Shown piece after piece: positions 24,781 to 60,554 of a DNA stretch of 64,000 bases. Within the stretch, counting starts at the first letter, position 1. Each line of letters starts with the position of its first letter. A program made the position numbers and the translations under genes. Origin of the DNA: a bacterium SCSIO 12827 (lineage in GTDB: Bacteria; Pseudomonadota; Alphaproteobacteria; Rhodospirillales; Casp-alpha2); contig CP073746.1 in NCBI GenBank assembly GCA_024397995.1, forward strand, positions 1,364,001-1,428,000. The letters are read 5' to 3'. The notes under the pieces were generated by a model. The model searched no databases, was not told where the DNA came from, and was given only the letters and a program-made list of their open reading frames with translations.

Positions 24781-25260
24781 ATGCTGAAAGCCTTGAACAT
24801 TGATCCGGGCAAATGCACGGGCTGTCTGCAGTGCGAACTTGCCTGCTCTTTCGAAAACGAGGGCGTGTTCAATCCGTCCAAGTCACGGATCAAGGTCTTC
24901 AATTTCCACGACCAGGGCCGCTTCGTGCCTTATACCTGCACGCAATGCGACGAGGCCTGGTGCATGCACGCCTGTCCGGTCGACGCCATATCCCTGAACA
25001 AGTTGACCGGGGCCAAAGAGGTCAACGACAACCTCTGCGTCGGCTGCAAGGTCTGCACCATCGCCTGTCCCTTCGGCACGGTGAACTACAACTCCGCCAC
25101 CGGCAAGGTCATCAAGTGCGACCTGTGCGGCGGCGATCCGGAATGCGCCAAGGCCTGCCCGACCGACGCCATCACCTATGTGGACGCCGATTGGACCGGC
25201 TTGGACAAGATGCGCAAATGGGCGGCCAAGACCGACGCCGGCCAGCAAGCCGCGCACTGA
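24781..25260 (+). CDS. aorA: Ferredoxin-type electron transfer subunit with four [4Fe-4S] motifs (AorA-like)
   Basis: 159 residues with 16 cysteines in four motifs: CTGCLQCELAC, CTQCDEAWCMHAC, CVGCKVCTIAC and CDLCGGDPECAKAC, enough for four [4Fe-4S] clusters. Such HycB/CooF-like subunits shuttle electrons between oxidoreductases. It is the first gene of a set with the tungsten oxidoreductase (16 bases on) and an FAD reductase, as in the Aromatoleum aromaticum AorABC enzyme, where the AorA chain links AorB and AorC. GGGAGGA precedes the ATG. Confidence 0.88.
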   Translation: MLKALNIDPGKCTGCLQCELACSFENEGVFNPSKSRIKVFNFHDQGRFVPYTCTQCDEAWCMHACPVDAISLNKLTGAKEVNDNLCVGCKVCTIACPFGTVNYNSATGKVIKCDLCGGDPECAKACPTDAITYVDADWTGLDKMRKWAAKTDAGQQAAH

Positions 25261-25276
25261 AGGGGAGGACAATGTC

Positions 25277-27124
25277 ATGGCATGGGCACGGCGGATTCTG
25301 CGGGTCAACCTGACCAAGGGCACCTGCACGCATGAACCCCTCAACATGGAATGGGCCAAGCGCTATCTGGGTCAGCGCGGCCTGGCGACCAAATACCTGA
25401 CGGAAGAGATCGACCCCAAGGTCGATCCCCTTGCACCGGAAAACAAGCTGATCATGGCGACCGGTCCGCTGACCGGCACCTGCGCGTCCACGGCCGGGCG
25501 CTATTCGGTGATCACCAAGGGGGCGCTGACGGGCGCCATCGCCTGTTCCAATTCGGGCGGTTTCTTCGGCAACGAAATGAAGAACGCCGGGCTGGACATG
25601 ATCATCTTCGAAGGCCGCGCCAAGGCGCCGGTCTATCTGTTCATCGATAACGATGACTGCCGGCTGCTCGATGCCTCGGGCTATTGGGGCACCTCCGTGT
25701 GGGACACGGAAGAAGGCATTAAGGAAGCCCATGGCGACGCCCAGATCCGCGTCGCCTCGATTGGCGTGGCGGGCGAAAAGGGCGTCAAATTCGCCTGTGT
25801 CGTCAATGACATGCACCGCGCTGCCGGGCGATCCGGGGTGGGTACGGTGATGGGGTCCAAGAACCTGAAGGCCGTCGCCATCCGCGGCACCAAGGGGGGG
25901 TCCGTCGATGACATGCCGGCCTTCCTCAAGGCCACGGCCGAGGGCAAGAAGGTGCTGGCGGAAAACGCGGTGACGGGCCAGGGACTGCCGGCCTACGGCA
26001 CCCAGGTTCTGATGAACGTGATCAACGAAACCGGCGCCTTGCCGACCCGCAATCACCGCGACATTCAGTTCGAGGGGGCGTCTAAAATTTCCGCCGAGGC
26101 CATGGCCGAACCGCGTGAATCGGACGGCAAGCCCAATCTGGTGCGCAATGCCGCCTGCTTCGGTTGCACCATCGCCTGCGGGCGGGTGTCGACCATCGAC
26201 CGCACTCATTACACGGTGGCTGATCGGCCGCAGTATCAGAAGGCATCGGGCGGGTTGGAATACGAGGCCGCCTGGGCGCTAGGGGCGGCGACTGGCGTCG
26301 ACGATCTGGACGCCCTGACCTTCGCCAACTTCATCTGCAACGAACAGGGGATTGACCCCATCTCGTTCGGCGCCACGGTGGGGGCGGCGATGGAGATGTT
26401 CGAGGATGGTGTCATCACCACCAAGGAGACCGGCGGGATCGAGGTCACATTCGGGTCCGCCAAGGCGCTGACGGATCTGGCCGAGCTTTGCGGCCGGGGC
26501 GAAGGCTTCGGGGCGGAGATCGGCCTGGGGTCCAAGCTGCTCTGCGCAAAATACGGCAAGCCGGAACTGTCCATGTCCGTGAAAGGTCAGGAGTTCCCGG
26601 CTTATGACGGCCGGGGCATCCAGGGCATGGGGCTGACCTATGCCACCTCCAACCGGGGGGCCTGCCATCTGCGTAGCTATACCGTTGCGTCGGAAATCCT
26701 GGGCATTCCGGAAAAGACCGATCCCCTCGTCACCGACGGTAAGGCGGGTTTGGTCAAGGCGTTCCAGGACGCGACGGCGGCGGTCGACAGTGCGGGCATC
26801 TGCGTGTTCACCACCTTTGCCTGGACGCTGGAGGACATCGCGCCTCAGATCGACGCCGCCTGCGAGGGCGACTGGAGCGTCGAGGCCCTGTTGGCAACGG
26901 GGGAACGGATCTGGAACCTGGAACGCCAGTTTAATCTGGCAGCGGGCTTCACCGGCAAGGACGACAATCTGCCTCCGCGCCTGATGAAAGATGCGGCCAA
27001 GACCGGTCCGGCCAAGGGCCTGACCAGTGGTTTGGACAAGATGCTGCCGGAATATTATCAGCTGCGCGGCTGGTCCAAGGACGGCGTGCCGACCAACGAG
27101 ACCGTCAGCAGGCTGGGGCTGTAG
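25277..27124 (+). CDS. aorB: Aldehyde:ferredoxin oxidoreductase, tungsten-pterin catalytic subunit (AorB-like)
   Basis: 615 residues from ATG 25277 (GGGGAGGA precedes). The N-terminal part (LRVNLTKGTCTHEPL; ATGPLTGTCASTAGRYSV; NSGGFFGNEMKNAG) and the region around C294, C297, C301 (CFGCTIAC) and C509 (SAGICVF) match the AOR family; the four cysteines bind a [4Fe-4S] cluster at places equivalent to Pyrococcus AOR. The enzyme oxidises aldehydes to carboxylic acids and can reduce acids, using a tungsten (rarely molybdenum) bis-pterin cofactor. It sits between the ferredoxin and FAD-reductase genes. Substrate range is not predictable. Confidence 0.93.
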   Translation: MAWARRILRVNLTKGTCTHEPLNMEWAKRYLGQRGLATKYLTEEIDPKVDPLAPENKLIMATGPLTGTCASTAGRYSVITKGALTGAIACSNSGGFFGNEMKNAGLDMIIFEGRAKAPVYLFIDNDDCRLLDASGYWGTSVWDTEEGIKEAHGDAQIRVASIGVAGEKGVKFACVVNDMHRAAGRSGVGTVMGSKNLKAVAIRGTKGGSVDDMPAFLKATAEGKKVLAENAVTGQGLPAYGTQVLMNVINETGALPTRNHRDIQFEGASKISAEAMAEPRESDGKPNLVRNAACFGCTIACGRVSTIDRTHYTVADRPQYQKASGGLEYEAAWALGAATGVDDLDALTFANFICNEQGIDPISFGATVGAAMEMFEDGVITTKETGGIEVTFGSAKALTDLAELCGRGEGFGAEIGLGSKLLCAKYGKPELSMSVKGQEFPAYDGRGIQGMGLTYATSNRGACHLRSYTVASEILGIPEKTDPLVTDGKAGLVKAFQDATAAVDSAGICVFTTFAWTLEDIAPQIDAACEGDWSVEALLATGERIWNLERQFNLAAGFTGKDDNLPPRLMKDAAKTGPAKGLTSGLDKMLPEYYQLRGWSKDGVPTNETVSRLGL

Positions 27125-27128
27125 GGAC

Positions 27129-28364
27129 ATGACCTATGTCATCATCGGCGCCGGCCCGGCGGGGGTCGTCGCGGCGGAAACGCTTGCCAAGACGGACCCG
27201 GGGTCTGACATCGTGCTGTTGGGCGGAGAAGCCGATCCGCCTTATTCCCGCATGGCCATTCCCTATGTGCTGACCGGCATCATCGACCACGGCGGCACGC
27301 ACCTGCGCAAGACGGCCGGGCATTACGACACGCTCGGCATCATCTATCGCCAGGTCAAGGCGGCGGGTATCGACGTCAAGGGCAAGAAGGTCGCCCTGGA
27401 AGGCGGCGGCGAACAGCCCTACGACAAACTGCTGATCGCCACCGGGGCGAGCCCCATCAAGCCGCCGGTGCCGGGGCTCGACCTGCCCAGGGTGCATCAT
27501 TGCTGGACCCTCGACGACTGTCGGGAGATCGAGAAGTTGGCTCAGAAAGGCTCCGAGGTCGTCCTCATGGGGGCCGGCTTTATCGGCTGTATCATCTTGG
27601 AAGCCCTGGTCGAACGGGGCGTCAAGCTTACTGTGGTCGAGGCGTTGGATCGCATGGTGCCGCGCATGATGAACGAGACGGCGGGCACCCTGATCAAGGA
27701 CTGGTGTCAGGCCAAGGGCATCACGGTCCATACCTCGACTAAGGTGACGGAGGTCGGCGAACAGAACGGCCGCCTGGCCGTCGCCATGGATAATGGGGAA
27801 ACGGCGTCCGCCGACTTGGTGGTCGTCGCCGCCGGGGTGAAATCCAATATCGGCTTCATCGACGGCACCGGCATGAAGGCGGAACAGGGCATTCTGGTGG
27901 ACGAGTTCCTGCGCACCTCCGTCGACGGCGTCTATGCCGCCGGCGACTGCGCTCAGGGACCGGATTTCGGCGGCGGTTTCAACGTCCACGCCATTCAGCC
28001 GACCTCGACCGAGCACGGCCGCTTCGCCGCCCTCAACATGGCGGGTAAGGTCACGCCCTATCGGGGCTCGTTGCAGATGAACGTGCTGGACACGGCGGGG
28101 CTGATCTCGACCTCGTTCGGCGACTGGGAAGGAGGCGAGGGCACGCAGAGTGCCGAAGCCCTGGACCGCGCGCGTTTCAAGTACCTGCGCCTGAACTTCA
28201 AGGACGACGTGCTGGTCGGTGCCCTGTCGCTTGGGCGCACGGACCACATGGGCGTGCTGCGTGGCCTGATTCAGAACCGCACGCCGCTGGGCCTGTGGAA
28301 GGCACGACTGATGGACGACCCGCACCGCATCATGGAAGCCTATGTCGCCCATGCCTATGCCTGA
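27129..28364 (+). CDS. aorC: FAD-dependent NAD(P)H oxidoreductase subunit (AorC-like)
   Basis: 411 residues from ATG 27129, four bases after the AOR stop. It is a two-dinucleotide-fold flavoprotein: FAD motif VIIGAGPAGVVAAETL at the start, second fold VVLMGAGFIGCIILEAL near 140, and VYAAGDCAQG near 265. In the Aromatoleum enzyme the AorC chain passes electrons between ferredoxin-type clusters and NAD+, and this order supports the same role. The C-terminal 120 residues are typical of class-III-like reductases. It is followed by a MoaD-like gene after 15 bases. Confidence 0.86.
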   Translation: MTYVIIGAGPAGVVAAETLAKTDPGSDIVLLGGEADPPYSRMAIPYVLTGIIDHGGTHLRKTAGHYDTLGIIYRQVKAAGIDVKGKKVALEGGGEQPYDKLLIATGASPIKPPVPGLDLPRVHHCWTLDDCREIEKLAQKGSEVVLMGAGFIGCIILEALVERGVKLTVVEALDRMVPRMMNETAGTLIKDWCQAKGITVHTSTKVTEVGEQNGRLAVAMDNGETASADLVVVAAGVKSNIGFIDGTGMKAEQGILVDEFLRTSVDGVYAAGDCAQGPDFGGGFNVHAIQPTSTEHGRFAALNMAGKVTPYRGSLQMNVLDTAGLISTSFGDWEGGEGTQSAEALDRARFKYLRLNFKDDVLVGALSLGRTDHMGVLRGLIQNRTPLGLWKARLMDDPHRIMEAYVAHAYA

Positions 28365-28379
28365 CGGCGGGGGTAACCC

Positions 28380-28631
28380 ATGAAGATCCGGGTCAAGCTC
28401 TATGCTTCCCTCGCCGAACATCTGCCGGCGGGGACCAAGGGCAACGAGGCGGATCTGGAGGTTGCCGCCGACGCGACCCCGGCTACGGTCATCGCCCAGC
28501 TCGGCTTGCCGGAAAAGATGTGTCATCTGGTGTTGCTGAACGGCGTCTATGTGGAACCCTCGGCGCGGGCGGCCACGATCTTCAACGACGGCGATGCGCT
28601 CGCCATGTGGCCGCCGGTGGCGGGGGGCTGA
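28380..28631 (+). CDS. MoaD/ThiS-family sulfur carrier, dedicated to the tungsten cofactor
   Basis: 83 residues ending in the di-glycine tail VAGG that MoaD/ThiS proteins need for adenylation and thiocarboxylation. Core beta-grasp features: IRVKLYASLAEHLPAG at the start and LLNGVYVEPSA with DGDALAMWPPVAGG at the end. It supplies sulfur to metallopterin biosynthesis. A MoaD paralogue in the AOR operon is typical and suggests an AOR-specific cofactor supply. The next gene begins 5 bases after its stop. Confidence 0.88.
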   Translation: MKIRVKLYASLAEHLPAGTKGNEADLEVAADATPATVIAQLGLPEKMCHLVLLNGVYVEPSARAATIFNDGDALAMWPPVAGG

Positions 28632-28635
28632 CCCC

Positions 28636-28938
28636 GTGGCTGGCGAAGAGGCACCCGTCATCATCAGAAAGGAAATGGCCCTGACGCGGGCGGCTTTCTT
28701 TCGCGGCATCGCCAAGGCGCTGAGCACCGAGGCCTTCGTCGAGACGGCGGATGGCGTTGTGCTGGAGCAGGACGGCAAACGTCTGGAGATCGCCTTAGGG
28801 GCTGAACGCATGCGCCGCATCGCGCTGATCGAGATCGAAGTCATGGATGTGACGCTTGGGTTCCACGGCTATACCGGGGAGGATCGAGCTGCGGCGCTGG
28901 TGGCGTTCGACCGGGCGTTTCAGCGGGGTGGGGGTTGA
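28636..28938 (+). CDS. Uncharacterised small protein, last gene of the AOR operon
   Basis: 100 residues if started at GTG 28636, or 87 from ATG 28675, which has GAAAGGAA before it. Sequence (LTRAAFFRGIAKALSTEAFVETADGVVLEQDGKRLEIALGAERMRRIALIEIEVMDV...) resembles no family I can name. It is soluble, with beta-strand-rich alternation and no membrane segment. Tight spacing to the MoaD gene places it in the operon, so a role in cofactor insertion or AOR maturation is plausible. Function unproven. Confidence 0.62.
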   Translation: MAGEEAPVIIRKEMALTRAAFFRGIAKALSTEAFVETADGVVLEQDGKRLEIALGAERMRRIALIEIEVMDVTLGFHGYTGEDRAAALVAFDRAFQRGGG

Positions 28939-28951
28939 TTAGGATAGTTTT

Positions 28952-28966
28952 TTAGAAACATTCTAA
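28952..28966. promoter_or_regulatory. Iron control element (Irr box), TTAGAA-ACA-TTCTAA
   Basis: A perfect inverted repeat, TTAGAA (28952-28957), spacer ACA, TTCTAA (28961-28966), flanked by T on the left. This is the core of the ICE motif recognised by the Irr regulator of alphaproteobacteria. It lies 73 bases upstream of the EncFtn start, in the right place for control of iron storage. Irr genes are not in this window. Confidence 0.72.
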
Positions 28967-29038
28967 CTTTGAGTGTTGATCCCGATGGTGTATCCACTAT
29001 CTTTAATGTCCACACACGATTTGTATTAAGGAGCTCCC

Positions 29039-29341
29039 ATGTCGAGTGAAGGTTTCCACGAACCCCTGGAAAAGCTGTCCGAAGAGACCATGGACCGTCA
29101 TCGCGCCATTGTTTCCCTGATGGAGGAACTGGAGGCCGTCGATTGGTATCAGCAGCGCGTCGATGCCACCTCGGATCCGGAGCTCAAGGCGATCCTGGCC
29201 CATAATCGGGACGAGGAAATCGAGCACGCCGCCATGGTCCTGGAATGGCTGCGCCGCAGCATGCCGCAGTTCGACAAGGAACTCCGTGAAACCCTGTTCA
29301 AGGACGGCCCGATCACCGGCCATCACGGCGACGACCACTAA
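29039..29341 (+). CDS. Encapsulated ferritin-like protein (EncFtn) without adjacent encapsulin
   Basis: 100 residues. It closely follows the R. rubrum EncFtn sequence: HEPLEKLSEETMDRHRAIVS, MEELEAVDWYQQRVDA, DPELKAILAHNRDEEIEHAAMVLEWLRR. Ferroxidase residues map to E30, E60 and H63, with E32 and W36 conserved. EncFtn proteins form ring-like decamers of antiparallel dimers that oxidise Fe2+ inside an encapsulin shell. Normally a shell gene is next door and a C-terminal targeting peptide (-SLGIGSL like) ends the protein; here the protein ends ITGHHGDDH and the next gene is der on the opposite strand. AAGGAG precedes the ATG. Iron control is suggested by the box at 28952-28966. Confidence 0.9.
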   Translation: MSSEGFHEPLEKLSEETMDRHRAIVSLMEELEAVDWYQQRVDATSDPELKAILAHNRDEEIEHAAMVLEWLRRSMPQFDKELRETLFKDGPITGHHGDDH

Positions 29342-29362: not shown

Positions 29363-30769
29363 CTATTTCCGGTCCGCGTAGGGGTTGTCGCTCTTGCGGT
29401 AGATCAGGCGGATCGGCACGCCGTCGAGCCCGAAGTGGTCGCGCAGGCCGTTGACCAGAAAGCGGGTGTAGCTGTCCGGTAATTCGGTCGCCCGCGTGCA
29501 GAACACGATGAACGTGGGCGGGCGGGCCTTGGCCTGGGTCGCGTAGCGCAGGCGGATGCGCTTGCCGCCCTTGCCCATGGGGGCGGGGTGGACTTCCTGC
29601 ATATCGCTCAACCAGCGGTTCAGGTCGCCCGTGCCGATGCGCGTGTTCCACAGGTCATAGGTTTCGGTGACCGTGGGCAGAAGCTTATCCAGCCCCTGGC
29701 CGGTCAGGGCGGAGCAGGTAATGACGGGTATGCCCCGGACCTGCGGCAGGCTGGTCTGCAGGCGGTCGCCGAGGCGTTGGATCGTCTCGCCCCGGTCCTT
29801 GGCGGCGTCCCACTTGTTGACAGCGATGATCAGCGCGCGGCCTTCTTCGATAACCTGGCGGGCGATGGTCAGGTCCTGCTTTTCCAGGACCGCGTCGGCG
29901 TCCAGCACCAGCACCACGACATGGGCGAAGCGCACGGCGCGCAGGGTGTCGCGGGTGCTGAGGGATTCCAGCTTGTCGGTGATCCGTGCCTTGCGCCGCA
30001 GGCCAGCCGTGTCGATCAGCCGGTAATCGCGCCCGCCATGGTGCCAGGAAATGGAGATTGCGTCGCGGGTGATCCCGGCCTCGGGCCCGGTCAGCATGCG
30101 GTCTTCGCCGAGCAGGCGGTTGATCATGGTCGACTTGCCCACATTGGGCCGGCCGACGATGGCGAGTTGCAGGGCCTTGGGCTCGGCTGCGTCGTCGCAG
30201 TCTTCTTCGTCGTTGAATTCCTCGAGGTCGGCGAATTCATCTTCAATGTCGTAGGCTTGCGTGCCTTCGGCGGCGGCCTCGGCAAAGGGGATAAGCCGGT
30301 CGTACAGGTCCGACAGGCCGAGCCCGTGTTCCGCCGAAAAGGCGACAGGTTCGTCCAGGCCCAGGGAATAGGCGTCGAACAGTCCGGACTCGCCGGCCCG
30401 GCCCTCGCACTTGTTGGCGACCAGGATCGACGGCGTGCCGCGGGCCCGCAGCCAGGACACGAAATGCTGATCCATGGGCGTCACCCCGGCCCGCGCGTCG
30501 ATTACCATCAGCGCCACGTCGGCTTCGTCCAAGGCCCGTTCTGTCTGGCCGCGCATGCGGGCTTCCAGGCTGTCGTCGGTGACGTCCTCGAGCCCGGCGG
30601 TGTCGATCAGCCGGAATTTCAGGTCGGCAAGCTTGCCCTCGCCCTCGCGGCGGTCGCGGGTCACCCCCGGCGTATCGTCGACGATGGCCAATTTGCGCCC
30701 AACCAGACGGTTGAACAGGGTCGATTTGCCGACGTTGGGGCGGCCGATGATGGCGATGGTGAAGGGCAT
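29363..30769 (-). CDS. der: GTPase Der (EngA), ribosome assembly factor
   Basis: 468 residues with two tandem GTPase domains. First: GRPNVGKSTLFNRLVG at residue 8, DTPG, and NKCE. Second: GRPNVGKSTMINRLLGEDR near 210, DTAGLRRKA and NKWD. A C-terminal KH-like domain follows (NRWLSDMQEVHPAPMGKGG...). Der aids 50S ribosomal subunit maturation in the cytoplasm. The gene is downstream of bamB on the minus strand, an arrangement seen widely with yfgM and bamB. An acidic linker (about 175-205) joins the two G domains. Confidence 0.96.
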   Translation of the reverse strand: MPFTIAIIGRPNVGKSTLFNRLVGRKLAIVDDTPGVTRDRREGEGKLADLKFRLIDTAGLEDVTDDSLEARMRGQTERALDEADVALMVIDARAGVTPMDQHFVSWLRARGTPSILVANKCEGRAGESGLFDAYSLGLDEPVAFSAEHGLGLSDLYDRLIPFAEAAAEGTQAYDIEDEFADLEEFNDEEDCDDAAEPKALQLAIVGRPNVGKSTMINRLLGEDRMLTGPEAGITRDAISISWHHGGRDYRLIDTAGLRRKARITDKLESLSTRDTLRAVRFAHVVVLVLDADAVLEKQDLTIARQVIEEGRALIIAVNKWDAAKDRGETIQRLGDRLQTSLPQVRGIPVITCSALTGQGLDKLLPTVTETYDLWNTRIGTGDLNRWLSDMQEVHPAPMGKGGKRIRLRYATQAKARPPTFIVFCTRATELPDSYTRFLVNGLRDHFGLDGVPIRLIYRKSDNPYADRK

Positions 30770-59171: not shown

Positions 59172-60416
59172 TCAGGCGGCGGCGCCGTCGCGGGTTGATG
59201 CCTTTTGCCGGCGATTCGCGCGCTTTTCCCATTCGGTAATGTAATCGCGGGTCAGCGGCAGCGCGTCGCGCTTCTTCGTTAGCTGAATCTGGAACACCAC
59301 GTTGTCCATGTTTCGGAACGAACATTCGCTGGCTGCCAGATAGTACTCCCACATGCGGCAGAAACGCTCGTCATAAAGCGCTTTGGCCTCATTACGCCGC
59401 TTGTGGAAGCGGTGGCGCCAGTGTTTCAGGGTTTCGGCGTAGTGCAGGCGCAGGATTTCCACGTCCGTGGTGATCAGGCGTGTTTGTTCGACGCTGCGCA
59501 TGACCTCGGACAGGGCCGGGACATAGCCGCCGGGGAAGATGTATTTGCGGATCCAGGGGTTGGTTGCGCGTGGAGTTTCCGATCGCCCAATGGTGTGGAT
59601 CAGCGCCACGCCGTCGTCGGTCAAAAGCTTCTTCACGGTGTTGAAGTATTCCCGGTAATGCGTGATGCCGACATGTTCGAACATGCCGACGGATACGATG
59701 CGGTCGAAGGTGCCCGTCTGTTCCCGGTAGTCGCGTAAGTGGAATTCAACCCGGTCGGACAGCCCCGCCTTTTCCGCCCGTTCCCGGGCCACGCCGAGTT
59801 GCTCCGTCGACAAGGTCAGGCCCGTGACCTGGGCCCCGAGTTCACCGGCCAGATAGATGCCCAAACCACCCCAACCGCAGCCGATGTCCAGCACCTTCAT
59901 GCCGGGTCCGATCATCAGCTTGGCCGCCAAGTGGCGCTTTTTGTTCAACTGCGCGGTATCCAGGCTGTCCTGTGGGGTCTGGAAATAGGCGCAGGAATAC
60001 TGCCGGTCCCGGTCCAGGAACAATTCGTACAACCGGCCGTTGAGGTCGTAATGATGGGCCACGTTCTTCCGTGCCCGTGACGCAGGGTTGTACTGCTGCA
60101 AGCGGCGGAAAAGCGTATCCGCGGCGGCGACCCAGGTCATCATCGGGTGTTCCCCGCTGCCATCCATATTGGCGGTGATGAAGTCTAGGAAATCGAAGAT
60201 CGTGCCGTCCTCGACTGTGAAGGTGCCGTTCATATAAGCCTCGCCCAGGTATAGGCCCGGGTTGAAGAACAGCTTCCAGTGTAGGGACGGGTCGTGGAAC
60301 CGAATGGTCAGATTGGCGCCGGGGGAACCGGAAAAGACGTGTTCACGTCCGTGGGCGTCGATGGCCGTCAACCTGCCGGTCTGAACGATATGGCGTAGAA
60401 CATGCGCGAACAACAT
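59172..60416 (-). CDS. cfa: Cyclopropane-fatty-acyl-phospholipid synthase
   Basis: 414 residues from ATG 60416, preceded by GGGGAGGTG. S-adenosylmethionine motif VLDIGCGWGGLGIYLA, with family motifs HHYDLNGRLYELFLD and SCAYFQTPQDSLDTAQ. It adds a methylene bridge to membrane unsaturated acyl chains, an acid and stationary-phase adaptation. It is inserted between rplI and dnaB, on the same strand. It consumes SAM, as do the betaine methyltransferases. Confidence 0.93.
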   Translation of the reverse strand: MLFAHVLRHIVQTGRLTAIDAHGREHVFSGSPGANLTIRFHDPSLHWKLFFNPGLYLGEAYMNGTFTVEDGTIFDFLDFITANMDGSGEHPMMTWVAAADTLFRRLQQYNPASRARKNVAHHYDLNGRLYELFLDRDRQYSCAYFQTPQDSLDTAQLNKKRHLAAKLMIGPGMKVLDIGCGWGGLGIYLAGELGAQVTGLTLSTEQLGVARERAEKAGLSDRVEFHLRDYREQTGTFDRIVSVGMFEHVGITHYREYFNTVKKLLTDDGVALIHTIGRSETPRATNPWIRKYIFPGGYVPALSEVMRSVEQTRLITTDVEILRLHYAETLKHWRHRFHKRRNEAKALYDERFCRMWEYYLAASECSFRNMDNVVFQIQLTKKRDALPLTRDYITEWEKRANRRQKASTRDGAAA

Positions 60417-60554
60417 TTCCACCTCCCCGGGGCAGGAATGTCTGTTCTTACCCCTGGGCGTTTCCCTGAAACGCAAAAGCAACCGTGGGACTTTATAATT
60501 GTTCTAAAAAATGCCGACGGAGTCAATCCGTCCTAATCCGTGGTGTCCGGGCAC

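Follow-up and report, generated by a model that had tools for sequence, protein, structure and literature searches.

The window, the whole 64,000-nucleotide stretch of DNA that was analysed, carries at positions 29039-29341 of the forward strand an open reading frame for a 100-residue ferritin-like protein of the EncFtn family. It starts with ATG and is preceded by the ribosome-binding site AAGGAG. Its neighbours are those named in the preliminary description, an AOR operon upstream and, downstream, der, which is encoded on the other strand. The features considered below are as follows.

24781..28938, forward strand: AOR operon encoding a 4Fe-4S protein, an aldehyde:ferredoxin oxidoreductase, an FAD reductase, a MoaD-like protein and a small protein (profile matches)
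28939..29038, forward strand: intergenic region between the AOR operon and the EncFtn gene, with a candidate operator and the ribosome-binding site AAGGAG
28952..28966, forward strand: palindrome TTAGAAACATTCTAA, 72 bp upstream of the ATG, a Fur-family (Irr/PerR-like) operator candidate
29039..29341, forward strand: shell-less EncFtn (s-FLP / Non-EncFtn class), 100 aa (profile, structure and residue matches)
29363..30769, reverse strand: der GTPase, a convergent neighbour judged to lie outside the system (profile match)
60493..60507, reverse strand: one-mismatch copy of the palindrome, TTAGAACAATTATAA, preceding cfa (cyclopropane fatty acid synthase, 59172-60482, reverse strand) by about 75 bp
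L239 6485-9131, elsewhere in this genome: rbr, RFO and DUF3501, forming one operon

The protein matches the profiles TIGR04535 ("encapsulin-associated ferritin-like"; 142 bits, cut-off 125) and PF22277 (EncFtn-like; 147 bits, cut-off 27), and it is 71% identical to Rhodospirillum rubrum EncFtn (PDB 5da5; E 5e-39) and about 67% identical to Nitrosomonas europaea NE0167 (PDB 3k6c; E 4e-36). The ferroxidase residues E30, Y37, E60 and H63 are present (E32, Y39, E62 and H65 in R. rubrum), as are the entry-site residues E29 and E32 and the exit-site residues H55, E59 and E62; the preliminary description, which had noted the R. rubrum match with E30, E60 and H63 kept, was right about these residues, and Y37 and the two sites can be added to them. 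The AlphaFold model (pLDDT 90.7) contains helices at residues 15-43, 47-74 and 76-85, that is, the two long antiparallel helices and short third helix of the EncFtn-family fold, and a Foldseek search with this model returned 5da5 and its variants as the top PDB matches (TM to target 0.95-0.97), with 3k6c also found. The ferroxidase set is invariant across 113 tailless and 37 tailed sequences, and active, entry and exit residues together are near-invariant among the 113 distinct tailless sequences. This invariant active site rules out a non-ferritin paralogue, one of the cases that had been named as refuting the assignment. The C-terminal segment GPITGHHGDDH, modelled at low confidence (block mean 60), is short and His-rich and contains no targeting-peptide motif, in keeping with the earlier claim that the protein ends in ITGHHGDDH with no encapsulin-targeting peptide. 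With its EncFtn core, its 100 residues and its lack of a targeting peptide, the protein has the attributes of the s-FLP / Non-EncFtn class, whose members are about 95-103 aa long, and we regard it as virtually certain that the reading frame encodes a true EncFtn of this class. By analogy with its 71%- and 67%-identical relatives, it would form an annular decamer with the ferroxidase centre between subunits, and it is presumably active as a ferroxidase.

Shell and targeting tail in the genome and its relatives

A shell-less class of EncFtn was named "Non-EncFtn" by He et al. in 2016 (PMC5012862) and "s-FLP" in a 2024 review (PMC11202242), and the protein encoded here belongs to this known class. 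That review leaves the encapsulation of s-FLP open, and reviews still place tailless EncFtns among the "encapsulated" ferritins while calling the involvement of a shell unclear. A genome-wide encapsulin search was among the checks suggested in the preliminary description. Across the genome (a single contig of 3.93 Mb, 99% complete), a profile search found no PF04454 encapsulin, although the control genomes gave matches, and no SrpI-type shell (PF19307), the model for which does match another alphaproteobacterium. Neither the shell gene nor the targeting tail of an encapsulated ferritin system is thus present, and it is close to certain that this bacterium has no encapsulin shell.

The same pairing of tail and shell is found among relatives. 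A survey of the order covered 297 genomes, 69 of which have a strong EncFtn match. Encapsulin is encoded in 27 of the 69, in all 27 within a few hundred bases of a tailed EncFtn, and the other 42 carry no encapsulin anywhere in the genome. The preliminary description had treated an EncFtn with no shell as exceptional, a view at odds both with these 42 of 69 genomes and with the class having been named twice. It had also left a choice between a protein free in the cytoplasm and one served by a shell encoded elsewhere: no shell was found nearby or elsewhere, and in the wider survey shell absence is the rule of the tailless class. A targeting-peptide tail was present in 37 of 37 distinct shell-linked EncFtns (36 recognized by pattern, one by eye) and in 0 of 113 distinct tailless ones; L167 was left out of this count, as it has a tail and no shell in its 16-kb locus. 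The L167 gene (7536-8375) encodes a Myxococcota EncFtn whose targeting-type tail reads STVGSLRG. In all, the search for EncFtn took in about 700 genomes. A phylum-wide sample gave 20 further strong matches, comprising 2 adjacent EncFtn-encapsulin pairs, 16 genomes with no encapsulin, and 2 genomes (G347 and G367) in which a distant encapsulin accompanies a divergent EncFtn-like protein with no targeting tail. The latter two belong to a group of four loci (L227-L230, from G367, G347, G419 and G567) encoding divergent EncFtn-like proteins (MGFDQYHEPPEEL..., EEFKHF) that lack a targeting tail, a distant encapsulin being present in two of the four genomes.

In a tree of the EncFtn core, with the tail excluded, tailed and tailless forms interleave, requiring at least 14 changes, of which well-supported branches force 6; many forks are unresolved because the alignment has only 87 columns. 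Together with the pairing seen in the survey, this interleaving of states indicates that tail and shell come and go jointly. The all-or-none pairing across genomes argues, moreover, that tailless EncFtn functions with no encapsulin at all. Tailless EncFtns from three groups of genera of the family to which this genome belongs (g1, g2/g9 and g3/g5) fall in separate parts of the tree, a scatter that hints at transfer or old duplicates. The tails also differ in composition, with 15% His in tailless forms and 1% in shell-linked forms; His-rich tails such as GHHGDDH and TGHHHDH possibly bind metal. One gene, L049 8241-8621 (G140), encodes an EncFtn whose tail stops right after SDGPIR, in a genome with no encapsulin whose close kin keep both tail and shell, and a recent joint loss may have occurred there. 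A search for encapsulin remnants near genes with truncated or intermediate tails (L049, L043, L057, L059 and L064) found none; the matches fell only on EncFtn itself, since some of the query frames carry part of EncFtn.

A shared Irr/PerR-like box

A scan of the intergenic region 28939-29038 for promoters and terminators gave nothing useful, and no consensus sigma-70 promoter was found there. The region does contain the palindrome TTAGAAACATTCTAA, which resembles an iron control element (ICE), as expected of a member of an Irr regulon. The perfect form, TTAGAANNNTTCTAA, occurs once in this genome, upstream of EncFtn (28952-28966), and once each in G095, G103 and G206, always before EncFtn and with partly different spacers; G191 has a one-mismatch box at the same place. 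Five of seven genus members thus have the box at EncFtn. The EncFtn genes of the sister species G232 and G111 have no such box upstream, nor do those of genus g2, which is in the same family, or of other families. A search of the regions before other tailless EncFtn genes for Fur or PerR boxes gave no consistent motif outside this genus.

Related boxes precede other genes. The TTAGAACAATTATAA-type box is found upstream of cfa in all seven EncFtn-bearing genus members, and Cfa may belong to the same regulon as EncFtn. A box lies 107 bp upstream of katG, present in the three cases examined, and another 80 bp upstream of rbr-RFO-DUF3501, with two mismatches here and one in four sister species; the rbr box was present in six of six genus members. 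In G232 a box is situated 66 bp upstream of dps (L241 1501-2085), and G111 has the same site (L246), the dps gene itself having been identified in L241. No box was found upstream of bfr in this genome. Across the sites, 0-1 of 500 local shuffles scored as well as the box, the count being 0 of 500 for the EncFtn box. Counted over a whole genome, box-like sites are no more numerous than matches to a reversed-pattern control, and the argument for a shared box therefore rests on position and conservation.

The genome encodes three Fur-family proteins: a Fur, a Zur and, at 223 bits on NF045678 (cut-off 150), an unambiguous Irr, whose gene lies directly upstream of rbr-RFO-DUF3501. The iron control element of Sinorhizobium meliloti mbfA has TTCTAA as a half-site (PMC7540006). 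Irr acts as a repressor of bfr and mbfA, and haem iron or H2O2 leads to its degradation (PMC4902296). This half-site, together with the irr gene and the literature, is the reason for calling the element an Irr/PerR-like box. Judged from sequence, Irr may be the regulator that binds at 28952-28966, and the direction of control would likewise be read from what is known of Irr.

The aerobic rubrerythrin operon

Blind clustering of the neighbours of EncFtn genes yielded two recurrent genes on the same strand, one ending just upstream and the other starting just downstream. They encode a CCG Fe-S protein and DUF3501, and a rubrerythrin gene lies further upstream. Together the three make up RBR-RFO-DUF3501, the rubrerythrin system of aerobic type that Cardenas et al. 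reported in 2016 (PMC5114695). The order rbr-RFO-EncFtn-DUF3501, on one strand and with gaps mostly below 100 bp, was found at 31 loci (in two of which rbr would lie beyond the end of a short contig) from Thioalkalivibrio, Acidiferrobacteraceae (Acidiferrobacter), the alphaproteobacterium G399 and several unclassified Proteobacteria. A hemW-like neighbour in Acidithiobacillus, convergent and on the opposite strand, was judged incidental.

None of the 37 shell-linked EncFtn loci has this operon link. On a thinned tree, 12 of the 82 tailless rows have it, against none of the 34 shell-linked ones (Fisher p 0.017, ignoring kinship), and the trait requires at least 7 changes, only 2 of them forced by well-supported branches. 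Most of the 31 loci belong to a set that was chosen because it resembled the query; among the 16 typical EncFtn loci of the phylum sample, which is unbiased, the link occurs once (G399), and it is lineage-limited. In the present genome the trio lies at 3.91 Mb, beside irr and 1.4 Mb from EncFtn on the circular map, so that EncFtn is not within the rbr operon. DUF3501 is encoded by 33 of the 41 tailless genomes and by 10 of the 27 that are shell-linked. All 12 of the checked family members with no EncFtn encode it too, and its co-occurrence alone is therefore unspecific and weak as proof. The preliminary description had supposed either another partner or a new role for the protein; the direction of that suggestion holds, and the operons and the shared box make rbr-RFO-DUF3501 the best candidate partner.

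Possible function and comparison with known systems

We propose that this EncFtn is a free cytosolic decameric ferroxidase in iron and peroxide defence, with Bfr storing the iron, a reading of role and regulation to which we give an even chance. The gene would be transcribed as a separate unit. Its probable regulator is Irr, a Fur-family sensor of haem/iron and peroxide that would act through the box at 28952-28966, and the co-controlled set would include the aerobic rubrerythrin operon, the catalase-peroxidase KatG and, in relatives, Dps. The shell-free annular decamer, with ferroxidase centres between its subunits, would most likely oxidize Fe(II) with O2 or H2O2 under iron or peroxide stress, which would take Fenton-active iron out of the cytosol, and would pass the iron to two bacterioferritins and not mineralize it itself. 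Two tandem bfr genes (591480-592368 of this genome, L235) lie beside a gene for a MauG/MbnH-like di-haem protein and could take part in such a hand-over. EncFtn alone is known to oxidize iron but not to mineralize it, and to aggregate (He et al., PMC5012862); the in vitro behaviour of R. rubrum EncFtn in the absence of its shell, iron precipitation and aggregation, speaks against the proposal. No Dps was found in this genome, and G232 and G111, where the box stands at dps instead of EncFtn, are consistent with a duty that EncFtn and Dps share.

The absence of Dps here and the placement of the box in those two species could also be read to mean that EncFtn is a stand-alone, Dps-like store, a decamer that holds tens of irons on its surface, with its His-rich tail and no partner, and that replaces Dps. 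The His content of tailless tails would suit this idea, which we nonetheless consider improbable: the R. rubrum EncFtn decamer takes up only 10-48 irons and aggregates (PMC5012862); the tail is all but absent from many tailless members (IAHK, GKD); and two Bfr are already encoded in the genome. Somewhat better placed, though still unlikely, is the view that EncFtn is not an iron-detoxifying ferroxidase but a second di-iron peroxidase, or an electron-accepting partner, with RFO as its electron donor; RFO is GlpC-like, an Fe-S protein for which a role in passing on electrons has been proposed (PMC5114695). The position of the gene between RFO and DUF3501 at 31 loci in several lineages, and the box common to EncFtn and rbr in this genus, speak for such an enzyme; yet the ferroxidase centre and the iron entry and exit sites are fully conserved, the operon link is lineage-limited, and the trio occurs with no EncFtn in many genomes, so that EncFtn is not essential to it.

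Two further explanations would place EncFtn with other partners. A hidden or unrelated shell, such as a divergent encapsulin or a phage-capsid-like protein, might house it through an undefined tail, a possibility that PMC11202242 leaves open for s-FLP and that the 10-residue tail could in principle serve. We strongly disfavour this explanation, given a complete genome with no PF04454 or SrpI-like gene, the absence of encapsulin from 42 of 42 tailless-only genomes, the location of 27 of 27 encapsulins beside a tailed form, and the lack of a common motif among the tails of tailless forms. Membership of the AOR operon, for example in protecting or maturing the tungsten/iron-sulphur enzyme, is suggested by the adjacent, co-directional arrangement in most genus members and is the least credible of the four: the 100-bp intergenic gap has its own candidate operator, no AOR lies near EncFtn in any other genus, the same family included, and the linkage, confined to this genus, is broken even in the sister species G191, where about 2.3 kb separate the two. 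The AOR operon was accordingly judged incidental and not part of the system. It is an observation in its own right that an alphaproteobacterium carries, at 24781-28938, a complete five-gene AOR operon that includes an FAD reductase and a MoaD-like protein of its own.

If the proposed defence role is correct, it would mean that a ferritin fold serves peroxide and iron defence as a free enzyme. The rbr-RFO-DUF3501 operon and the shared Irr/PerR-like box provide concrete candidate partners for tailless EncFtn, and the link could help to explain the roles of RFO and DUF3501. More tentatively, and with the balance of probability against it, tailless EncFtn could be a shell-free fourth component of this system (RBR-RFO-EncFtn-DUF3501), an enzyme and not a store, in a lineage that moved several times between storage in a shell and an enzymatic life outside one, each time through joint gain or loss of tail and shell.

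Several known systems bear comparison with the one described here. R. rubrum EncFtn (Rru_A0973, 5da5) shares 71% identity, the ferroxidase, entry and exit residues, and the fold, but is longer (140 aa), carries a GSLGIGSLK-type tail and has an encapsulin gene next to it; tail and encapsulin are both missing here. N. europaea NE0167, a member of the same class for which a decameric crystal structure (3k6c) is already available, is closer in kind: it is of the same length class, about 67% identical and of the same fold, and neither protein has a targeting peptide. The context and function of NE0167 are absent from PMC11202242 and PMC5012862, whereas an Irr/PerR-like box and links to the rubrerythrin system were found here. 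With the alphaproteobacterial Irr regulon and its ICE (PMC3413700, PMC7540006, PMC4902296), of which iron-storage and peroxide genes are typical targets, the present system has in common the TTCTAA half-site and an irr gene; it differs in that the 7-1-7 layout of the box also resembles PerR boxes and in that bfr has no box. Finally, the three genes of the aerobic rubrerythrin system of PMC5114695, a paper in which EncFtn is unmentioned, are all present here beside irr and preceded by a related box. EncFtn is encoded at a distant locus in this genome, whereas in 31 other loci a tailless EncFtn lies inside the operon itself.
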